The notes beneath the pieces are model-generated. The model worked only from the letters and a program-made list of their open reading frames with translations, was not told the DNA's origin and searched no databases. A program made the position numbers and the translations under genes. Below are positions 15,940 to 51,530 of a stretch of DNA of 58,099 nucleotides, piece by piece. The stretch comes from an uncultured Bacilli bacterium (GTDB lineage: Bacteria; Bacillota_I; Bacilli_A; RF39; UBA660), in assembly GCA_944358695.1 (NCBI GenBank), contig CALVRM010000018.1:1-58099 (forward strand), given 5' to 3'. Position 1 is the first letter of the stretch; the number at the start of each line of letters is the position of its first letter.

Positions 15940-16192
15940 ATATAGAATTATTTGAAGAGTTTAACGTTAAGTTTAGTTTAGAAATAACTGATAATAGAAG
16001 AACTATTAAATATGGCCTATTAGTATATTTGCATGTTGAATCGTTTTTTAAAAAATAATGTTGTATAATTGGGCCAATCATTTTTACTCACGATTAACAC
16101 CAACATTTTCTATGAAAATATAATATATTTAAAAAGAATAATTAATCATCTTGACTATTTATTCTTTATATTACAATATACTAATTTTTACG
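15940..16192. other. AT-rich intergenic stretch with no intact gene
   Basis: After the terminator, a 37-codon coding-like stretch on the plus strand (about 15946-16060, beginning E-L-F-E-E-F and ending K-K-stop) has no start codon or SD and could be a gene scrap. Nothing else is recognised before the end of the pentapeptide-repeat gene. Confidence 0.35.
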
Positions 16193-17437
16193 TTATCTTC
16201 CTTTTGTATTCCTTATCTTCACTAATTCTTTGACTGTGCTTATAAATTCATCAGCAACATCTTCTTTGACCTCAGCTCCTGTATCACTTAAATCAGCTTT
16301 TTCTATACAAACATTAGTAAAATCTTTACCACTTAAATCTAAACCAGATAAGTTTGTATTCTTTAAACTTTTGTACTTAACTGTTTGCGGATCTATATTG
16401 GCATTTGTATTACTTAAATTAGCGTGTCTTATGTCAACACCAGAAAAAATTTTACCACTTAAATCTAAACCAGATAAGTTTGTTTCATATAAACTATTAT
16501 ACTTAACTGTTTGCGGTTCTATATTGGCATTTGTATTACTTAAATTAGCGTGTTTTACATCAACACCAGAAAAATCTTTATCGCTTAAATCTAAACCAGA
16601 TAAGTTTGTACCCCATAAACATCTGCTATCAACTGTTTGAGGATTTATGTTGGCATTTGTGTAGCTTAAATTAGCTCTTGCTATATTAACAGCAGTAAAG
16701 TCTTTCCCTCTTAAATCTAAACCAGATAAGTTTGTTCCGAATAAACATTTGTCCTTAACTGTTTGCGGATCTATATTGGCATTTGTATTACTTAAATTAG
16801 CGTAGTTTATATTAACATCATTAAAGACTTGGCCACTTAGATCTACACCAGATAAGTTGGTGCCTTCTAAACTTCTGCCATCAACTGTTTGAGGATTTAT
16901 GTTGGAACTTGTGTAGCTTAAATTAGCTTTTGTTATATTAACATTAGAAAAATCTTTATCGCTTAAATCTAAACCAGATAAGTTTGTATTCTCTAAACTT
17001 TTGATAAAAACTGTTTGTGGATCTATATTGGCCCCTGTATTACTTAAATTAGCTTTCGTTATATTAACATCAGAAAAATCTTTCCCACTTAAATCTAAAC
17101 CGGATAAGTTTGTTCCATGTAAATTTTTATTATAAACTGTTTGCGGGTCTATATTAGCATTTGTATAACTTAAATCAGCGTTTTCTATATCAACACCAGA
17201 AAAATCTATTTCCGATAAATCTAGTTTTCTTAATTCACTTACAGGAAAGGCTACGCTTAATTTGCTGTAACTAATTATTCTACTGAAAATTACTTGCTGT
17301 AATATGTCAGTGTTTAACTTAATTCTTTCGTAGTTGTAATTTTCATCATAAGCCCTTTCAACATCAAATTCTGGAATTTTTTGTAATTCTTCTTTTAAAG
17401 TTTTTCTAATTTCTTCTATCTGTATTTCGCTAAGCAC
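16193..17437 (-). CDS. Pentapeptide-repeat protein with 42-residue superrepeats
   Basis: The 414-residue protein has a helical N-terminal region (1-70), about 7.6 copies of a 42-residue unit (about 71-390) and a short helical tail. Each unit contains consecutive five-residue steps of the A(D/N)LSx type (TNLSG LDLSG KDFSD VNITK ANLSN) followed by an IDPQTV stretch and a short spacer, so it should fold as a quadrilateral beta-helix interrupted by a regular loop. Some pentapeptide proteins mimic DNA and bind gyrase, but most have no known role. The GTG at 17437 is preferred because AGGAG (17446-17450) lies 8 bases upstream; the GTG at 17446 overlaps that SD. The gene stands alone in a patch of decayed sequence, which suggests acquisition. 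Confidence 0.85.
   Translation of the reverse strand: MLSEIQIEEIRKTLKEELQKIPEFDVERAYDENYNYERIKLNTDILQQVIFSRIISYSKLSVAFPVSELRKLDLSEIDFSGVDIENADLSYTNANIDPQTVYNKNLHGTNLSGLDLSGKDFSDVNITKANLSNTGANIDPQTVFIKSLENTNLSGLDLSDKDFSNVNITKANLSYTSSNINPQTVDGRSLEGTNLSGVDLSGQVFNDVNINYANLSNTNANIDPQTVKDKCLFGTNLSGLDLRGKDFTAVNIARANLSYTNANINPQTVDSRCLWGTNLSGLDLSDKDFSGVDVKHANLSNTNANIEPQTVKYNSLYETNLSGLDLSGKIFSGVDIRHANLSNTNANIDPQTVKYKSLKNTNLSGLDLSGKDFTNVCIEKADLSDTGAEVKEDVADEFISTVKELVKIRNTKGR
16269..17227 (-). repeat. 126-bp tandem coding repeats
   Basis: About 7.6 direct repeats with an exact 126-bp period; the shared string CTTAAATCTAAACC-type core recurs near 16331, 16457, 16583, 16709, 16835, 16961 and 17087 and in weaker form near 17213. 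No unit is broken by a frameshift. Such a gene can change length by recombination between units. Confidence 0.85.
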
Positions 17438-17772
17438 TATAACCACTCCTAACTAATTAATCCTTTACCTTTGCAAAATAAAATAATATTACCTAACAAG
17501 AAAAAAGCCTTTTCCAATAATTATATCTTCCATTTTTCTATTAATTTTATCTAAACATTTCTGATTTAATTTCAAAATTCACTCTTTTTTCAGTATGTAT
17601 TTAGAATATATTTTACATCAAAAAAATATATTTTCCAATACCTTTTTATCATTTTGTTATTTTATTTTGTACTAGTTGCATTTGACCAAAATTTAATTTT
17701 TAATATTGATCTATGGCTGAAAATACCAAAAGAGGTAATTTATTTAAATCTTTTGTTGTTAGAGCGGATCAT

Positions 17773-18128: not shown

Positions 18129-18331
18129 TTACATCTTAAAGTATACATGATATAATTATTAAGAAAGGAATTTTTTTGTTAGGTAATGCGATTTTATTTC
18201 GCAAGAGTAATAAATAATGTAGCGGAAATTATAGACATTTAATTGTCAGATGTTTGACAAAAATGTTTTTGATTAAAATTGCTATTTTGCAAAATTATTA
18301 CTGCCACACATTGTAAGTAGGAGGTTTATTT

Positions 18332-20330: not shown

Positions 20331-20834
20331 TTAACATATTTTATTTTTTTCTAAATATAAGACGTTAGGGTAGCTATAGTTTAAGATTTTATCCAAATCT
20401 TTAGTGCTAATTTCGGCTGACATATCTGGAACACCAACTGAACAAATAAAAGCATCATAGTCTAAAACGACTTTATCAACAATTACAGTGTCAACAATGT
20501 CGTTAATGTAACCAAAAGCAGCTACGCTACCAGGAACACAGCCAATAATTTCAGTCATTTCGTCGCTACTGACAATGTTAACTTTTTCACCAATTAGACC
20601 TTTGATTCTTTTAGAATCTAGTTTTTGATCTTCAGTAGTTATATAGATATAAAATTTACCTGATTTTCCTTTAACAAACAAACTTTTAGTTTCTTTACCA
20701 GTCCATCCTAATTCTTCATCTACTTTAGCTGCAATTTCAAAATTTAAAATTGGTTCATGGCTTGCTAATTTGCAATCGATGTTTAATTTTTTTAATATGT
20801 TTAAAATATTTTCTTTTAACTCTTCTTTTTTCAT
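20331..20834 (-). CDS. YbaK/ProX-type aminoacyl-tRNA deacylase-like protein
   Basis: A 167-residue protein of the YbaK/EbsC/ProX fold, which hydrolyses mischarged tRNAs such as Ala- or Cys-tRNA-Pro in trans. Visible: the central K-S-L-F segment (TKSLFVKG) that supplies the conserved lysine, and the C-terminal GxVPGSVAAFG loop. The ATG at 20834 is used because AGGTGAT lies 4 bases upstream; the GTG three codons earlier sits inside that SD. It follows the divergent yceD promoter region and ends 39 bases before the tmcAL start. Exact substrate unknown. Confidence 0.85.
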   Translation of the reverse strand: MKKEELKENILNILKKLNIDCKLASHEPILNFEIAAKVDEELGWTGKETKSLFVKGKSGKFYIYITTEDQKLDSKRIKGLIGEKVNIVSSDEMTEIIGCVPGSVAAFGYINDIVDTVIVDKVVLDYDAFICSVGVPDMSAEISTKDLDKILNYSYPNVLYLEKNKIC

Positions 20835-20876
20835 ATTTATCACCTATGATTATTATAACATATTTTAAATTTTCAT

Positions 20877-20919
20877 TTTACATTTTTGCGAAAAAAGTAG
20901 GTCTATGGAGAATGTTACT
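20877..20919 (+). repeat. 43-bp repeated element, copy 1 (between yceD and the deacylase gene)
   Basis: Matches the segment at 33747-33789 at 39 of 43 positions without gaps. Core: ACATTTTTGC, an A tract, then GTCT-A/T-TGGAGAATG and TACT. AGTA and TACT near the ends can pair, with TCT/AGA inside. It lies between two divergent promoters, 8 bases upstream of the yceD -35 box. Confidence 0.75.
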
Positions 20920-20927
20920 ATAATAAT

Positions 20928-20956
20928 TTGCTTTATAAAGACTTTTCGTATATAAT
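20928..20956 (+). promoter_or_regulatory. SigA-type promoter of yceD-rpmF
   Basis: TTGCTT (20928-20933), 17 bases, TATAAT (20951-20956). The yceD SD GAGGTGAT begins about 8 bases later. The opposite strand has TG-T-TATAAT at about 20852-20860 for the divergent deacylase gene. Confidence 0.7.
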
Positions 20957-20976
20957 GTTAATGCGAGGTGATGTTA

Positions 20977-21453
20977 TTGCAGATCGATATTGCTAATTTA
21001 CATTCAGGTTTAGAGAATTTTATAACTATTGATGAAACATATTCTTTTGATAAGGAAATGTTAAAAGATACAGAAATTACCGCACTTAAAGATGTAAAAA
21101 TCGTAGGTGATATTACTAAAAATAGTTTAGATGAATATATTATAAATGTAGTAATATCAGGGATAATGGTGTTGCCATGTGCTTTAACGTTAAAGCCGGT
21201 TGATTATCAGTTTGAAACGAATATTTCAGGTAATTTGGCTGACGTTTTTGAAGAATTTGGAGAAAATTACGAAAACAATCAAAAAACTATTGATATTTTG
21301 CCAATAATATGGGAAAATATATTAATGGAAATTCCCATTAGAGTTATTAGTGATGACATTAGTGGTGTAAAAACGAAAGGTGATGGCTGGGAATTAATTA
21401 CCGATGATGGTATGGGTAATTCTAGCTTATCAAAACTGAAAGACTTATTATAG
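20977..21453 (+). CDS. yceD: DUF177 / YceD family protein
   Basis: A 158-residue DUF177 protein. The family is nearly always encoded directly before rpmF and is linked to 23S rRNA and ribosome biogenesis; its exact activity is not settled. Typical here is the central VSGIMVLPCALTLKPVDYQF region, with a conserved Cys, and the acidic C-terminal third with DILPIIWENILMEIPIR. The TTG at 20977 is chosen because GAGGTGAT ends 4 bases before it, the spacing used by other genes in this window; the upstream GTG and ATG overlap the SD. rpmF follows 12 bases after the stop. Confidence 0.9.
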   Translation: MQIDIANLHSGLENFITIDETYSFDKEMLKDTEITALKDVKIVGDITKNSLDEYIINVVISGIMVLPCALTLKPVDYQFETNISGNLADVFEEFGENYENNQKTIDILPIIWENILMEIPIRVISDDISGVKTKGDGWELITDDGMGNSSLSKLKDLL

Positions 21454-21465
21454 GAGGTGTGAGAA

Positions 21466-21654
21466 ATGGCTGTACCAGCTAGAAAAGTAAGTAATACTAG
21501 AGGTAGAAAACGTCGTACACATTATAAAATAGATGAAAAGACCACAACTAAGTGTCCTAAATGTGGCGCTGACGTAAAACCACATAGAGTTTGTAAAGCG
21601 TGTGGAACTTATAAAGGAAAAGAAGTTATTCAAATTGAAGAAGAAACAGCATAG
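21466..21654 (+). CDS. rpmF: 50S ribosomal protein L32
   Basis: A 62-residue L32 with the usual start [19 protein letters not shown] and a zinc ribbon with two CxxC pairs (CPKC and CKAC). The ATG has AGGAGG 8 bases upstream. It is the second gene of the yceD-rpmF unit and its 3' end forms part of the terminator. The Cys-containing form of L32 is the zinc-dependent type. Confidence 0.97.
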
Positions 21655-32767: not shown

Positions 32768-33727
32768 ATGCTAGAGAAAAATAGGTTTTTAGCAATTAAA
32801 AATTTAGCTAAAGATATTAGAAAAGAAAATGAAAAATTGTTTAAAGCATTTGCTAAAGAATCAGTGGACGATGCGGTTAGGGAAAAAGAAGAATTCATTG
32901 AGTCAGTAGTTGATAGTATGGATATTGCTTTTAGCGACGGTGAGCAAGGAAAAGAAGAAAGACAGATTTTTCGAGCTAATTTATTAATACCCGATGATTT
33001 AGACTTCTTTAATGCATATTCGAAGGATAAAAACATTCGTAATTTAATGAATAAATATGCCGTAGGTATTGAAGATATTATGAGTAAAATTACGGAGTTA
33101 AATATTTATGGTAAGTATATCGATGTTTTTAATGAAGAAGAAGCAGTCGAAAAGGAAGAAGACTTTGTTGACGAAATGGTTAATCTTTCTTCTAAGGAAG
33201 CTGAAAGTTTATTAGATGAAATTGAGGATTTATCTAGCGTAATGGAAGAATTGGATATTCCGGCTGAGGAAGCAACGGAAGCGTCTGCGGTGGCTTTGGA
33301 ACCAGAAATAATTGAAGAAGCTGAAGATGAAATTATGCAAGAGGATTCTACTGAGGAGCCGACTTTAGAAATGAAGGATATGGAGATTAATGACGAATTT
33401 GAAGACATCAGTAATGCAGTTTCCGGATTTGTTGATGAATATACTAAAGTGAAAGATGATTTAGATATAGCGCAAGCAAAGATAAAAGCATTTGATACTG
33501 AAAAAGAAGAATTATCAACGCAAATTGCATCTTTAAAAGACGAGAATGAAGAGCTTAAAAGAAGTAATTTAGAAAGTGCTAGTGCTTTAAATAAAGCTCG
33601 TGAAGAAGTAAAAATGATTTCTAATGAAAATGTGACTTTAAAAGAACAAATTAAAGTTATGGAGAAAAAAGTTAAACAGTCCGCAGATTTACTTAAGAAA
33701 ATTTATAATAGTATTCCGAAGAAATAG
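32768..33727 (+). CDS. Acidic, coiled-coil protein of unknown function
   Basis: The 319-residue protein has a helical N-terminal domain (1-120), a very acidic low-complexity middle (about 122-215, mostly Glu and Asp) and a long C-terminal coiled coil (about 225-310) ending in basic residues. No membrane segment or signal peptide. I do not recognise the family. ATG at 32768 has GAGGTG upstream. It lies 35 bases behind efp with no terminator between, so it should be made together with L33 and EF-P, which hints at a translation- or division-related role without proving it. Confidence 0.75.
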   Translation: MLEKNRFLAIKNLAKDIRKENEKLFKAFAKESVDDAVREKEEFIESVVDSMDIAFSDGEQGKEERQIFRANLLIPDDLDFFNAYSKDKNIRNLMNKYAVGIEDIMSKITELNIYGKYIDVFNEEEAVEKEEDFVDEMVNLSSKEAESLLDEIEDLSSVMEELDIPAEEATEASAVALEPEIIEEAEDEIMQEDSTEEPTLEMKDMEINDEFEDISNAVSGFVDEYTKVKDDLDIAQAKIKAFDTEKEELSTQIASLKDENEELKRSNLESASALNKAREEVKMISNENVTLKEQIKVMEKKVKQSADLLKKIYNSIPKK

Positions 33728-33745
33728 AAAAAACTATTTCTTTTT
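33719..33745 (+). terminator. Terminator of rpmG-efp-orf
   Basis: AAGAAATAG (33719-33727) pairs with CTATTTCTT (33734-33742), loop of six A, then T residues; the stop codon lies in the stem. Confidence 0.85.
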
Positions 33746-33746
33746 G

Positions 33747-33789
33747 TTTACATTTTTGCAAAAAAAGTAAGTCTTTGGAGAATGGTACT
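33747..33789 (+). repeat. 43-bp repeated element, copy 2 (before the infC operon)
   Basis: Ungapped match to 20877-20919 at 39 of 43 positions, same orientation relative to the ribosomal-protein genes downstream. It starts right behind the terminator of the previous unit and ends 76 bases before the infC -35 box. The TTTTTGCAAAAA part is a 12-bp palindrome in this copy. Confidence 0.75.
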
Positions 33790-33865
33790 TTTTCCTATTA
33801 ATTATAAATGGTTTTTATTCTCTTAAATTTAAGGATGTTTTTGTTTATATTTATCATATTTTTAC

Positions 33866-33894
33866 TTGACAAACATATAATTAGATTGTATAAT
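33866..33894 (+). promoter_or_regulatory. Consensus promoter of infC-rpmI-rplT
   Basis: Perfect TTGACA (33866-33871), 17 bases, perfect TATAAT (33889-33894). Confidence 0.8.
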
Positions 33895-33900
33895 CGTAAA

Positions 33901-34034
33901 GGAAATGAAAAAAGGAAAGAAGGAGTATCCACTTCTCACCCGATTGCTAAAGGCGATGGGTTAATGCCGGTCAAGTAGAACTAGAACGCATAAGTGGATA
34001 CATTCGTATTCACTTTTTTATGGAGGTGTCAGGT
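33901..34034 (+). promoter_or_regulatory. L20-type attenuator leader of infC-rpmI-rplT
   Basis: Two mutually exclusive folds. GTATCCACTT (33925-33934) pairs perfectly with AAGTGGATAC (33992-34001), enclosing an ACCC/GGGT hairpin (33938-33961). Alternatively AAGTGGATAC pairs with GTATTCACTT (34006-34015) and forms a terminator followed by T residues, just before the infC SD. This is the logic of the L20 leader in Bacillota, where excess L20 favours the terminator; L20 binding itself is inferred. Confidence 0.85.
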
Positions 34035-34565
34035 ATCGCAAGTAGAGAAAAAGATTTATACATAAACGAACAAATTCGTGCAAAAGAAGTATTGGTAATT
34101 GGTCCTAATGGTGAACAATTGGGGATAAAATCGATTAAGGATGCTTTAACTTTGGCTTCTTATGCTGGTTTCGATTTGGTTTTAATGAATCCAAATGGTA
34201 AACCACCAGTATGTAAGATAATGGATTATAATCGTTATAAATATGATCAAAAGAAAAAGCAAAAAGAAAATATGAAAAGACAACGAGAAAATAATTTGGA
34301 GATGAAAGAATATAGATTATCAGTATCTATTGATGTTCATGATTTTAATACGCGAGTAAACAATGCAACAAAGTATTTGCAAAAAGGGCATAAGATCAAA
34401 GTAACTATTCGCTTCAAGGGTAGGGAAATGGCGCATCAATATCTAGGAAAAGAAGTTTTACTTCGATTTGCTGAGGCAGTTAGTGAGTATGCGACTGTGG
34501 AGCAACAGCCTAAGTTAGATGGACGTTTTATGAATATGATACTTGCACCGATTAAAGAAAAATAG
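34035..34565 (+). CDS. infC: Translation initiation factor IF-3, apparent AUC start
   Basis: IF-3 binds the 30S subunit and controls start-codon selection. The 176-residue protein has the N-domain (LYINEQIRAKEVLVIGPNGE), a Lys-rich linker (about 75-90) and the C-domain (SVSIDVHDFNTRVNNA). The only strong SD, GGAGGTG (34022-34028), overlaps the in-frame ATG at 34020, which itself lies against the attenuator T run. Six bases after the SD is ATC (34035), which gives M-A-S-R-E-K-D-L-Y-I-N-E-Q, the normal IF-3 N-terminus. A non-canonical AUU/AUC start is known for infC and gives self-control, because IF-3 rejects such codons. Confidence 0.9.
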   Translation: MASREKDLYINEQIRAKEVLVIGPNGEQLGIKSIKDALTLASYAGFDLVLMNPNGKPPVCKIMDYNRYKYDQKKKQKENMKRQRENNLEMKEYRLSVSIDVHDFNTRVNNATKYLQKGHKIKVTIRFKGREMAHQYLGKEVLLRFAEAVSEYATVEQQPKLDGRFMNMILAPIKEK

Positions 34566-34576
34566 GAGGAAGAAAT

Positions 34577-34777
34577 ATGGCTAAAAAGACTCAAAAAACT
34601 CATAAAGGTTTAGCAAAAGTTATAAAAGTAAGAAAAGGTGGTTCTATTAAGTACCAACCGGCTAATAAAAATCATAAATTAACTCATAAAAGTAATGCAT
34701 CAAGAAGAAGAAGACATCACGAGTCTGAAATGCATAGTTCAGATATTAAACGAGTTAAAGAATTAATTAATAAGTAG
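34577..34777 (+). CDS. rpmI: 50S ribosomal protein L35
   Basis: A 66-residue, Lys/Arg-rich L35, starting MAKKTQKTHKGLAKV and containing KLTHKSNASRRRRH. ATG follows AGGAGG. Middle gene of infC-rpmI-rplT, 11 bases behind infC and 22 before rplT. Confidence 0.96.
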   Translation: MAKKTQKTHKGLAKVIKVRKGGSIKYQPANKNHKLTHKSNASRRRRHHESEMHSSDIKRVKELINK

Positions 34778-34799
34778 AGATTAGAGGAGGACAATATAT

Positions 34800-35336
34800 A
34801 TGACAAGAGTTAAAGGTGGGACGATTTCACGTGCTCGTCACAAGAAAGCTTTAAAACAGGCAAAAGGTTATTTTGGAAGTAAACATAAATTATATAAGAC
34901 AGCTAAAGAACAAGTAAGACATTCATTAATGTATGCATATAGAGATAGAAGAACTAAAAAAAGAGATTTTAGAAAGTTATGGATCACCAGAATTAATGCG
35001 GCTTGCAGACAAAATGATATTTCATATTCAAGATTTATCAATGGTTTATCTAAAGCTGGAATTGAAATCAATAGAAAAATGTTATCAGAGATCGCAATTG
35101 ATGATCCTAAAATGTTTGCTGGATTAGTAGCTACGGCTAAAGCAGCTTTATCTGGAAAACAGATTAAAGAAGAACAAGAAACTGCAAAAGTTGCTTCTAA
35201 AAGTGAAACTAAAGTAGATACTAAAGAAGATATTTCAAAATTAACAGTTGCTGAACTTAAAAAGCTAGCTAAAGAAAAAAAAGTAGAAGGTTATTCTACA
35301 ATGAAAAAAGCTGAATTATTAGATGCCTTAAAATAA
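34800..35336 (+). CDS. rplT: 50S ribosomal protein L20 with C-terminal Rho-N-like extension
   Basis: Residues 1-118 are a normal L20 ([16 protein letters not shown], the [10 protein letters not shown] and [14 protein letters not shown] segments). L20 organises 23S rRNA early in assembly and represses its own operon. The family usually ends near 118; here a charged linker (119-143) and a 35-residue unit follow: [34 protein letters not shown]. That unit has the L-T-x-x-E-L-K-x-x-A-K and S-x-x-x-K-x-E-L pattern of the Rho N-terminal or SAP helix-loop-helix nucleic-acid-binding motif. The frame is continuous and ends at a terminator, so the extension is real. ATG has GAGGAGG upstream. Confidence 0.95.
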
Positions 35337-49696: not shown

Positions 49697-49719
49697 AAAA
49701 ATAGTTAATTACTATTTTT
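49697..49719 (-). terminator. Terminator of the VanY pair
   Basis: AAAAATAGT (49697-49705) pairs with ACTATTTTT (49711-49719), 5-base loop; on the minus strand a T run follows. Overlaps the stop codon. Confidence 0.75.
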
Positions 49720-50574
49720 ATTTTGAATATAATATGCATAATATTCTTCTAAAGTTAAATTCTCTTTTTGAAGCTGGTTAGCTATTTTTGAGCCAACGTA
49801 TCGGTAGTGCCAAGGCTCATATTGATAACCTGTGATGTCTTCTTTATCTTTAGGAAATCTTAAGATAAAACCATATTTATATGCGTTTTTTTGAAGCCAT
49901 TTGAAAGCATCAGTATTTTCAAAACTATTATCAATTTGATTAATATCGGTAGCTAAGCCGGTTTGGTGTTCTGAAAACCCTGGTCTAGCTGAATAAGTAT
50001 CAGCGGCAGTTTTACCATCTCTTTCAACGTAATTATTATATAAGGTTGTTTGATACTTATAAGTACGATAAGCTGAAGCATTTTTAATTATAATATTATC
50101 AAGAGTTGCCGCATCAGACATTTCCATAAAAGCATTGGCAGCTTCTTTTCGCATTTGACTATTTATACCAGTGTTATATTTAGCATTTAGTGTTATTAGG
50201 TCATCTGGTTCATAATCTTCTGTTAAATAATAATATTTGTTAACAAGCATTAAGTTATTATCTTGTAGGTTAGTTGCGATTGTATCTTTATATTTTTCTT
50301 TGTCTAAATTACAATTAACGTCAGCAATAATTTTACTGGGACTTAAATTTTTATCTTTGGCATAGGTTAGGTATCTATTTAAGTTGGCTTCAATATAATA
50401 TGTTTCTTCTTTTAAACTATTTTCAAGAGGATCAACAGGTTGATTTGCTTGGATATTTTTTTCTTCTTTTTTGTCTGTGGTGAGAAAATAAACTAGAGTG
50501 CCAATAATAATTAAAAGAAGAATATTGATGACAATAAATGTATTGCGTTTTTTCTTTTTTCTTTGTTTTGTCAT
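49705..50574 (-). CDS. VanY-type D-alanyl-D-alanine carboxypeptidase, second copy
   Basis: A 289-residue zinc peptidase of the VanY family, anchored by one N-terminal helix (about 12-31) with the enzyme outside the cell. Zinc and catalytic residues: SEHQTGLATD (H203, D210) and EPWHYRYVG (E253, H256). It trims the terminal D-Ala of peptidoglycan stems; without other van genes near, a role in normal wall turnover is more likely than glycopeptide resistance. ATG has AAGGAG 5 bases upstream. It starts 2 bases after the stop of its paralogue, with which it shares the layout and many motifs. Confidence 0.92.
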   Translation of the reverse strand: MTKQRKKKKRNTFIVINILLLIIIGTLVYFLTTDKKEEKNIQANQPVDPLENSLKEETYYIEANLNRYLTYAKDKNLSPSKIIADVNCNLDKEKYKDTIATNLQDNNLMLVNKYYYLTEDYEPDDLITLNAKYNTGINSQMRKEAANAFMEMSDAATLDNIIIKNASAYRTYKYQTTLYNNYVERDGKTAADTYSARPGFSEHQTGLATDINQIDNSFENTDAFKWLQKNAYKYGFILRFPKDKEDITGYQYEPWHYRYVGSKIANQLQKENLTLEEYYAYYIQNKNSN

Positions 50575-50576
50575 AT

Positions 50577-51530
50577 TTACTCCTTATCTAAATAATAAGC
50601 ATAGTATTCATCGTATGTTAATCCAGATTTTTTGACTTTGGTTGCTAAATCTTTACCTAAATAGCGGTAGTGCCATGATTCATAGGCGTAACCGGTTATT
50701 TCTTCTTTGTCTTTAGGGTACCTTAAGATAAAACCATATTTATGGGCATTTTTTTGAAGCCATTTGAAAGCATCAGTTTGATCAAAAGTTTCTCCGGATG
50801 CTCCATAAGTAATAATATCTAAGGCAAGCCCGCTTTGGTGTTCTGAATAATCAGGTCTAGCTGCATATTCATCGGCATATTCTTCACCTTTTAACTCTTT
50901 ATAGTCGTCATATATTTTTTTCTGTTCTTCATAAGTGCGGTAACCGGAATTGATGATTAAAGTATAGCCTTCTTCTTTGGCACTATTAAACATTTCTTTA
51001 AATGCATCTAAGACAACTTGTCTAGTTTTGATTCCGTCAAAAGCATACCAATTACTAACATCTACAACATCAGTTGGAGCGTATTTATCAGGTAAAGAAA
51101 AGTATTTATTAACTAAAATAGCATTTTCTTGTTGCATATCAGTTTTTTTAGTATGCGTGTAATAATCATAATTGCGTTTAACATTAACCATAGCTACTAT
51201 ATCTTGATAATCAATATCGTTAGTTTCTTTTTCTTTTTTAGTTATATATTCTTTATAAATGCTGTAATTTTTCCATAAAAAATATTTTTGCTTAGTTAAA
51301 GGAATTAAATCTTTATCATATTTTGTCAAGGCTTTGTCTAGGACCTTTTTATCGCTTTTAAGTAAAGCTGATATTTCTTTTTCGTTATATCCTAGTTTAT
51401 CTAGTTTATATTCATTACTAGTGTAATGCGTGTAAAGTTTAAACGCTATCACTGCTATTATTATAATAATTACGATAATTATAGCTATGATAATTGGTCT
51501 TTTTTTTATTTTCCTTTTTTTATTATACAT
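50577..51530 (-). CDS. VanY-type D-alanyl-D-alanine carboxypeptidase, first copy
   Basis: A 317-residue paralogue of the neighbouring gene: basic N-terminus, one membrane helix (about 11-31), a variable helical region (40-140) and the VanY domain with SEHQSGLALD (H231, D238) and ESWHYRYLG (E284, H287). Both proteins share an unusual N-K-Y-(F/Y)-x-L-x-(D/E)-x-Y-x-P-x-D segment just before the catalytic domain. ATG follows GGTGAT by 3 bases. First gene of a two-gene unit. Confidence 0.92.
   Translation of the reverse strand: MYNKKRKIKKRPIIIAIIIVIIIIIAVIAFKLYTHYTSNEYKLDKLGYNEKEISALLKSDKKVLDKALTKYDKDLIPLTKQKYFLWKNYSIYKEYITKKEKETNDIDYQDIVAMVNVKRNYDYYTHTKKTDMQQENAILVNKYFSLPDKYAPTDVVDVSNWYAFDGIKTRQVVLDAFKEMFNSAKEEGYTLIINSGYRTYEEQKKIYDDYKELKGEEYADEYAARPDYSEHQSGLALDIITYGASGETFDQTDAFKWLQKNAHKYGFILRYPKDKEEITGYAYESWHYRYLGKDLATKVKKSGLTYDEYYAYYLDKE

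Follow-up and report, generated by a model that had tools for sequence, protein, structure and literature searches.

Short interspersed repeats of bacterial chromosomes such as REP/BIME, BOX, RUP and MITEs are non-coding, scattered and intergenic, often sit at the 3′ ends of genes or in convergent spacers, and are restricted to particular lineages; the element described here resembles them in all of these respects. For the small-genome uncultured Bacilli of gut and rumen, we know of few described repeats or gene-shuffling systems.

The window, that is, the whole stretch of DNA that we analysed, comprises 58,099 nt from an uncultured Bacilli bacterium (source genome G000). A sequence-only reading had drawn attention to a 43-bp repeat in front of two ribosomal-protein operons and had offered four candidate roles for it, as a shared regulator site, an upstream promoter element, a small RNA element or a short mobile repeat. 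Alignment of 20877–20919 with 33747–33789 agreed with this description, revealing 39 of 43 identical positions without a gap and on the same strand, far above chance. With up to three mismatches allowed, the consensus pattern matched these two places in the window and no others, and it matched nowhere in 100 dinucleotide-preserving shuffles; a BLAST search of the genome with its own copy 1 retrieved copy 2 at E = 4e-11. The profile placed the conserved unit at 20877–20921 and 33747–33791, slightly longer than the 43 bases first noted. The downstream genes had also been named correctly, with YceD and IF3 recognized by Pfam. The two copies and their surroundings are as follows.

20331..20843, minus strand: YbaK-like tRNA-editing protein with an aminoacyl-tRNA editing domain (PF04073), divergent neighbour of copy 1
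20877..20921, plus strand: first copy of the element (profile R2 score 48.2 bits), flanked by the divergent YbaK-like gene (minus) and yceD (plus)
20928..20956, plus strand: putative sigma-70 promoter of yceD-rpmF (TTGCTT, 17 bases, TATAAT)
20968..21453, plus strand: yceD (Pfam PF02620)
21466..21654, plus strand: rpmF, 62 aa, named by its position after yceD and by sequence
32768..33727, plus strand: gene upstream of copy 2, encoding a 319-aa coiled-coil protein of unknown family
33721..33745, plus strand: intrinsic terminator (GAAATAG-loop-CTATTTC-TTTTT) that overlaps the stop codon at the end of the coiled-coil gene
33747..33791, plus strand: second copy of the element (profile R2 score 49.9 bits), immediately past the terminator of the upstream gene
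33866..33894, plus strand: putative infC promoter (TTGACA, 17 bases, TATAAT), its −35 starting 76 bases past copy 2
34020..34565, plus strand: infC (IF3_N, IF3_C)
34577..35336, plus strand: rpmI and rplT after infC, named from gene order and sequence

The −35 hexamer of the putative yceD promoter lies approximately 8 bases past copy 1, an arrangement that recurs at yceD in other species, and copy 2 begins 1–2 bases past the T-run of the terminator.

Three other features of the window were recorded. Seven tandem 126-bp repeats (16154–17209) lie inside a minus-strand ORF (16193–17446) and yield a protein of 42-residue repeats. Nearby, 17465–17504 and 18171–18210 form an inverted repeat with 40-base arms that are 83% complementary, separated by approximately 670 bases without a clear gene; it may be a small mobile element or a remnant. 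Divergent to yqgF, two adjacent homologous minus-strand genes (49705–50574 and 50577–51530) share 196 bp at 75% identity and are, judging from this similarity, a recent tandem duplication.

A polar intergenic family with a retained core

To follow the element beyond the window, we used a first, sequence-only profile built from eight copies and a second built from 112 copies. The source genome (45 contigs, 1.15 Mb) contains seven copies, five more than the window pair. Within the genus, 41 of 44 genomes gave matches, with 1–8 copies each and mostly 3–8 (G019, G023 and G028 have no copies or almost no copies), and the score distribution was bimodal, with true copies at 20 bits or more and everything else below 12. 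Outside the genus the element is rare: only four of 288 genomes (102 genera of the order) gave matches, from three further genera, in a survey that scored the best 21 candidates per genome and may miss weak copies. A class-wide sample, in which 24 candidates were scored, gave no match in other genera. Two genomes that fall beyond the genus or at its margin carry copies directly past smpB (L239 4494–4539 and L250 1073–1117). In the named collection, the exact core with the full element occurred in metagenome-assembled genomes labelled as uncultured Tenericutes, Bacilli or Firmicutes, including one that belongs to the RUG rumen set. Copies within one genome resemble each other (0.776) only a little more than do copies that share a site in different genomes (0.755) or copies elsewhere (0.741).

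Phage records, plasmids and viral contigs contained no clear copies. The one exact core match in viral contigs consisted of the core alone (18 bits) inside a phage gene, and the single plasmid match was chance-like, so a phage or plasmid origin was rejected. Bacteroidota genomes gave exact matches to the core only, which were incomplete and probably due to chance. Rfam gave no match in the window, and the open literature held no paper describing such an element; a literature match to the core sequence proved to be a PCR primer. The searches thus brought up no described family of this sequence, and the element fits the broad kind of short interspersed intergenic bacterial repeats.

The element is approximately 46 bp long and direction-bearing, with a consensus of about YTTKACAYTTTTGCRAAAAAATGTAAGTCTTTGGAGAATRTTACYTTA. 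Its most invariant blocks are CTTKACA, an A-tract, TCTTTGGAGAA and the AC of TKACY, and its middle (GNMR) is loose; CTTKACA and TGTAAG form weak inverted arms spanning approximately 26 bp overall. Covariation analysis of the copies revealed no compensatory base-pair changes, and single-sequence folding was no better than that of shuffles, at or above the shuffle mean. Any action of the element would therefore be as double-stranded DNA, and these results do not support the RNA element offered by the sequence-only reading. The rny loci hinted at a larger unit of 120 bp whose ends are inverted (CTTTACAC...GTGTAAAG), but this proved not to be general.

Comparison between species revealed that the core is retained while its surroundings change. 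In the dusB, prepilin-locus and nrdG-side groups, the element is 67–72% identical between species, and on one side or both the adjoining sequence lies close to the shuffled baseline (32–34%). At yqgF the element is 80% identical versus 50–66% in the flanks, and at rny, where the copy is retained even in another genus, the downstream flank falls to 40% and then to 26%. Because core identity is kept where flanks have diverged, the core is taken to be under constraint, through a host function, continued recombination or both.

Placement, promoters and orientation

Only 3 of the 112 copies overlap called frames, each of them short (49–61 codons) and probably spurious. The genome-wide search that the sequence-only reading had set as its test therefore found more than two copies and none inside genes. 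The copies occupy approximately 27 distinct gene neighbourhoods. By neighbour orientation, 47 copies are tandem, 32 convergent and 30 divergent; convergent spacers hold approximately 29% of copies versus approximately 6% of intergenic bases in the same genomes and are thus over-represented. Counted by distinct neighbourhood, 15 are tandem, 6 convergent and 5 divergent, with some loci merged by the clustering. Recurrent sites are the 3′ ends of rny and alaS and the regions upstream of yqgF, dusB, a prepilin gene beside tmcAL, yceD (also in G021, G022, G025 and G035), infC (also in G013, G022 and G034), rodA, a U32 peptidase/RNHCP pair and phosphoketolase; further neighbours include Fic and ligA, and only a minority of neighbours are ribosomal genes. 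Several species (for example L138 2650–2900, L131 10290–10520) have, upstream of yqgF, a second conserved non-coding block, AAGGTAATATTTAGGTAAGATAAGATAA and then TGTAAATTTACATTTTATTTACA, downstream of the element; it looks like a separate regulator site and is not evident upstream of the yqgF of the window.

Where a same-strand gene ends within 60 bases upstream, the element directly follows a hairpin and T-run in 43 of 51 copies, mostly within a few bases. A good −35/−10 pair occurs in the first 60 bases for 29 of 65 copies with a same-strand gene downstream, often with the −35 at 2–7 bases, and for 0 of 44 copies where the next gene is convergent. The link to promoters proposed from the window pair therefore stands in part: at approximately eight independent loci a sigma-70 −35 hexamer begins 0–8 bases downstream of the element, and the link fails where the next gene is convergent.

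Orientation is strongly biased. The direction of 26 of 30 copies follows the majority of coding sequence in the surrounding 10–58 kb (4 oppose it), and neighbouring copies on one contig, within approximately 15 kb, nearly all point the same way, with exceptions on G001:C6 and G012:C7. At rny and yqgF, tandem pairs without a gene between them lie 99–131 bp apart; their helical phasing is weak (p about 0.01–0.05) and not significant when related spacings are merged (p = 0.35).

Loci with one copy and loci with a gene between copies

In the source genome, the copy upstream of dusB (C5:9648) and that at C10:12086 share 109 bp at 90% identity in unrelated surroundings, and the pair is by this measure a recent duplicate. 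Some sites are singletons found in single species. One site has probably decayed or been lost: the dusB copy is present in G066, and its close relative G005 is without 31 bases of it, with a possible remnant kept.

Four loci exist in two states, with a single copy in some species and a copy-gene-copy arrangement in others. Between ligA and pflB, G061 has a single copy and G011 has copies around an ORF6N gene; at the U32 peptidase/RNHCP pair, G061, G021 and G007 have a single copy and G011 has copies around two ORF6N genes. Between rny and a convergent gene, a single copy in G000, G030 and G031 corresponds to copies around a leucine-rich-like gene in G002, G065 and G017, and at alaS a single copy in G001, G022 and G025 corresponds to copies around a Bro-N gene in G009. 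Paired copies always share one orientation. Behind ORF6N, the copy is near-identical at both G011 loci and begins right at the stop codon, and it looks as if it had travelled with the gene. In G017, the repeated stretch runs approximately 16 bp beyond the element. The leucine-rich-like family (311–370 aa) lies between two elements at rny of three species (L116 2673–3608, L113 2262–3356, L302 7917–9029) and had no Pfam, PHROG or NCBIfam match. Only a few genomes are known to carry such inserted genes. ORF6N genes are not obligate cassettes, since most of the 60-odd in the genus have no copy nearby. Copy number, the recent 109-bp duplicate and the copy-gene-copy arrangements all speak for a scattered repeat.

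Readings of the element and known systems

The reading that we tentatively favour, while holding it somewhat short of probable, is that of a scattered, att-like intergenic repeat, recognized by a protein, at which accessory genes become inserted. A polar element of approximately 46 bp has spread by copying to scattered intergenic sites in one genus. Its conserved blocks CTTKACA, A-tract, TCTTTGGAGAA and TKACY would form a protein recognition site, and a protein probably does recognize the element. An accessory gene would insert beside an element together with a further copy, giving the copy-gene-copy arrangement in direct orientation; we infer that site-specific insertion rather than chance made these arrangements. 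We favour the att-like reading because no other accounts for the correspondence between loci that hold a gene flanked by direct copies and single-copy loci elsewhere. Our confidence is limited in that no dedicated recombinase turned up and that many copies stand alone with no inserted gene: G000 carries seven copies, yet XerC and XerD are its only tyrosine recombinases, and its dif site differs from the element. Long-term retention at rny, even in another genus, suggests a host function and counts against the att-like reading, as does the repeat that extends approximately 16 bp past the element in G017, which a precise crossover inside the element does not predict. The many ORF6N genes with no copy close by, the lack of clear copies in phage records, plasmids and viral contigs, and the small number of genomes with inserted genes weigh in the same direction.

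A host function is the core of a possible but rather doubtful account, in which the element is a binding site for a host protein selected at transcription-unit borders (between terminator and promoter, at divergent promoters or between convergent genes), where the bound protein would insulate or activate neighbouring transcription or organize the chromosome. The hairpin and T-run before 43 of 51 copies with a close same-strand upstream gene, the −35 hexamers 0–8 bases downstream at approximately eight independent loci, the core that persists as flanks diverge, the orientation of 26 of 30 copies with the local coding majority and the weakly phased tandem copies at rny and yqgF are consistent with it. 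However, a compact genome offers no neutral places other than the gaps between terminator and promoter, convergent sites lack a promoter, most sites are filled in a subset of species only and the phasing is not significant when treated conservatively (p = 0.35); by itself, a host-protein site leaves the copying and the copy-gene-copy loci unexplained. Patchy occupancy, genus restriction, over-representation between convergent genes (approximately 29% of copies versus 6% of intergenic bases), the recent 109-bp duplicate and the probable loss or decay at dusB in G005 would instead suit a passive, non-autonomous, MITE-like mobile repeat that inserts beside terminators without a function, the genes between copies being composite insertions or chance. 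We consider this distinctly unlikely, given that terminal inverted repeats are not general, no target duplication is recognizable, no transposase partner appeared (Y1 transposases occur in just 5 of 44 genomes), the core persists in old copies and close relatives have sites in common. Regulation of ribosomal or growth genes, through a regulator site, promoter element or RNA leader, is very improbable. Several species do have copies upstream of yceD-rpmF and infC, and in G509 the element precedes rbfA, but most neighbourhoods are non-ribosomal and approximately 29% of copies lie between convergent genes, a distribution that already contradicts the link to ribosomal-protein operons drawn from the window pair. 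A cis-regulatory RNA (leader or riboswitch) was rejected on the same placement between convergent genes and on the lack of an Rfam match and of covariation.

Most species of the genus thus have a conserved polar multi-copy site, with accessory genes between direct copies in several. Such an element offers a handle on gene gain in reduced genomes, or on an unknown DNA-binding protein. It also carries a caution, as a repeat before two ribosomal operons need not mean ribosomal control; here the wider survey removes the link.

Among known systems, replication-fork Ter sites are likewise few, polar and intergenic, mostly in one orientation relative to local genes. A Ter-like site was rejected because contig C32, which holds dif, has no copy and orientation has clear exceptions (4 of 30 oppose local coding). 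The dif/pdif modules resemble the element as short sites, direct or inverted, that flank movable genes, and in its weak inverted arms; the element differs in its additional conserved TCTTTGGAGAA-TKACY half. A genuine chromosomal dif, TTCCTATAATATATATTATGTTAA, lies near xerD at G000:C32:62926–62949 (L198), similar sites occur near xerD in several genus members, one per genome where found, and its sequence differs from the element, which argues against a dif or Xer site. Unlike REP/BIME, BOX, RUP and MITEs, the element has no stable palindrome, terminal inverted repeats or covariation, has few copies per genome, is strongly polar and had no RAYT or transposase partner among the genomes searched. 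For REP/RAYT, the Y1 transposase (PF01797) occurs in 5 of 44 genus genomes versus elements in 41 of 44, and a REP-type hairpin does not fit the absence of compensatory covariation and folding at or above the shuffle mean; for MITEs, no inverted end is enriched downstream of copies overall, no target duplication is recognizable and the ends abut terminators.

Integron attC/attI sites share with the element direct-orientation sites around single accessory genes, a site that abuts the stop codon and an apparent insert consisting of a gene plus one site. The element differs from them in having no hairpin-forming conserved core (folding and covariation were both negative for an attC-like, foldable single-stranded hairpin), in being dispersed on the chromosome versus gathered in one array and in that most copies have no cassette. 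The tyrosine recombinases examined in G000 were of XerC and XerD type only and included no IntI integrase, and no tyrosine recombinase adjoined an element within the loci scanned. It is conceivable, if unlikely, that the element belongs to a cassette system unlike integrons, with short, double-stranded, hairpinless sites dispersed on the chromosome beside housekeeping genes, at which an enzyme would insert single genes (ORF6N, Bro-N, leucine-rich-like and others), each ending in its own copy of the site.
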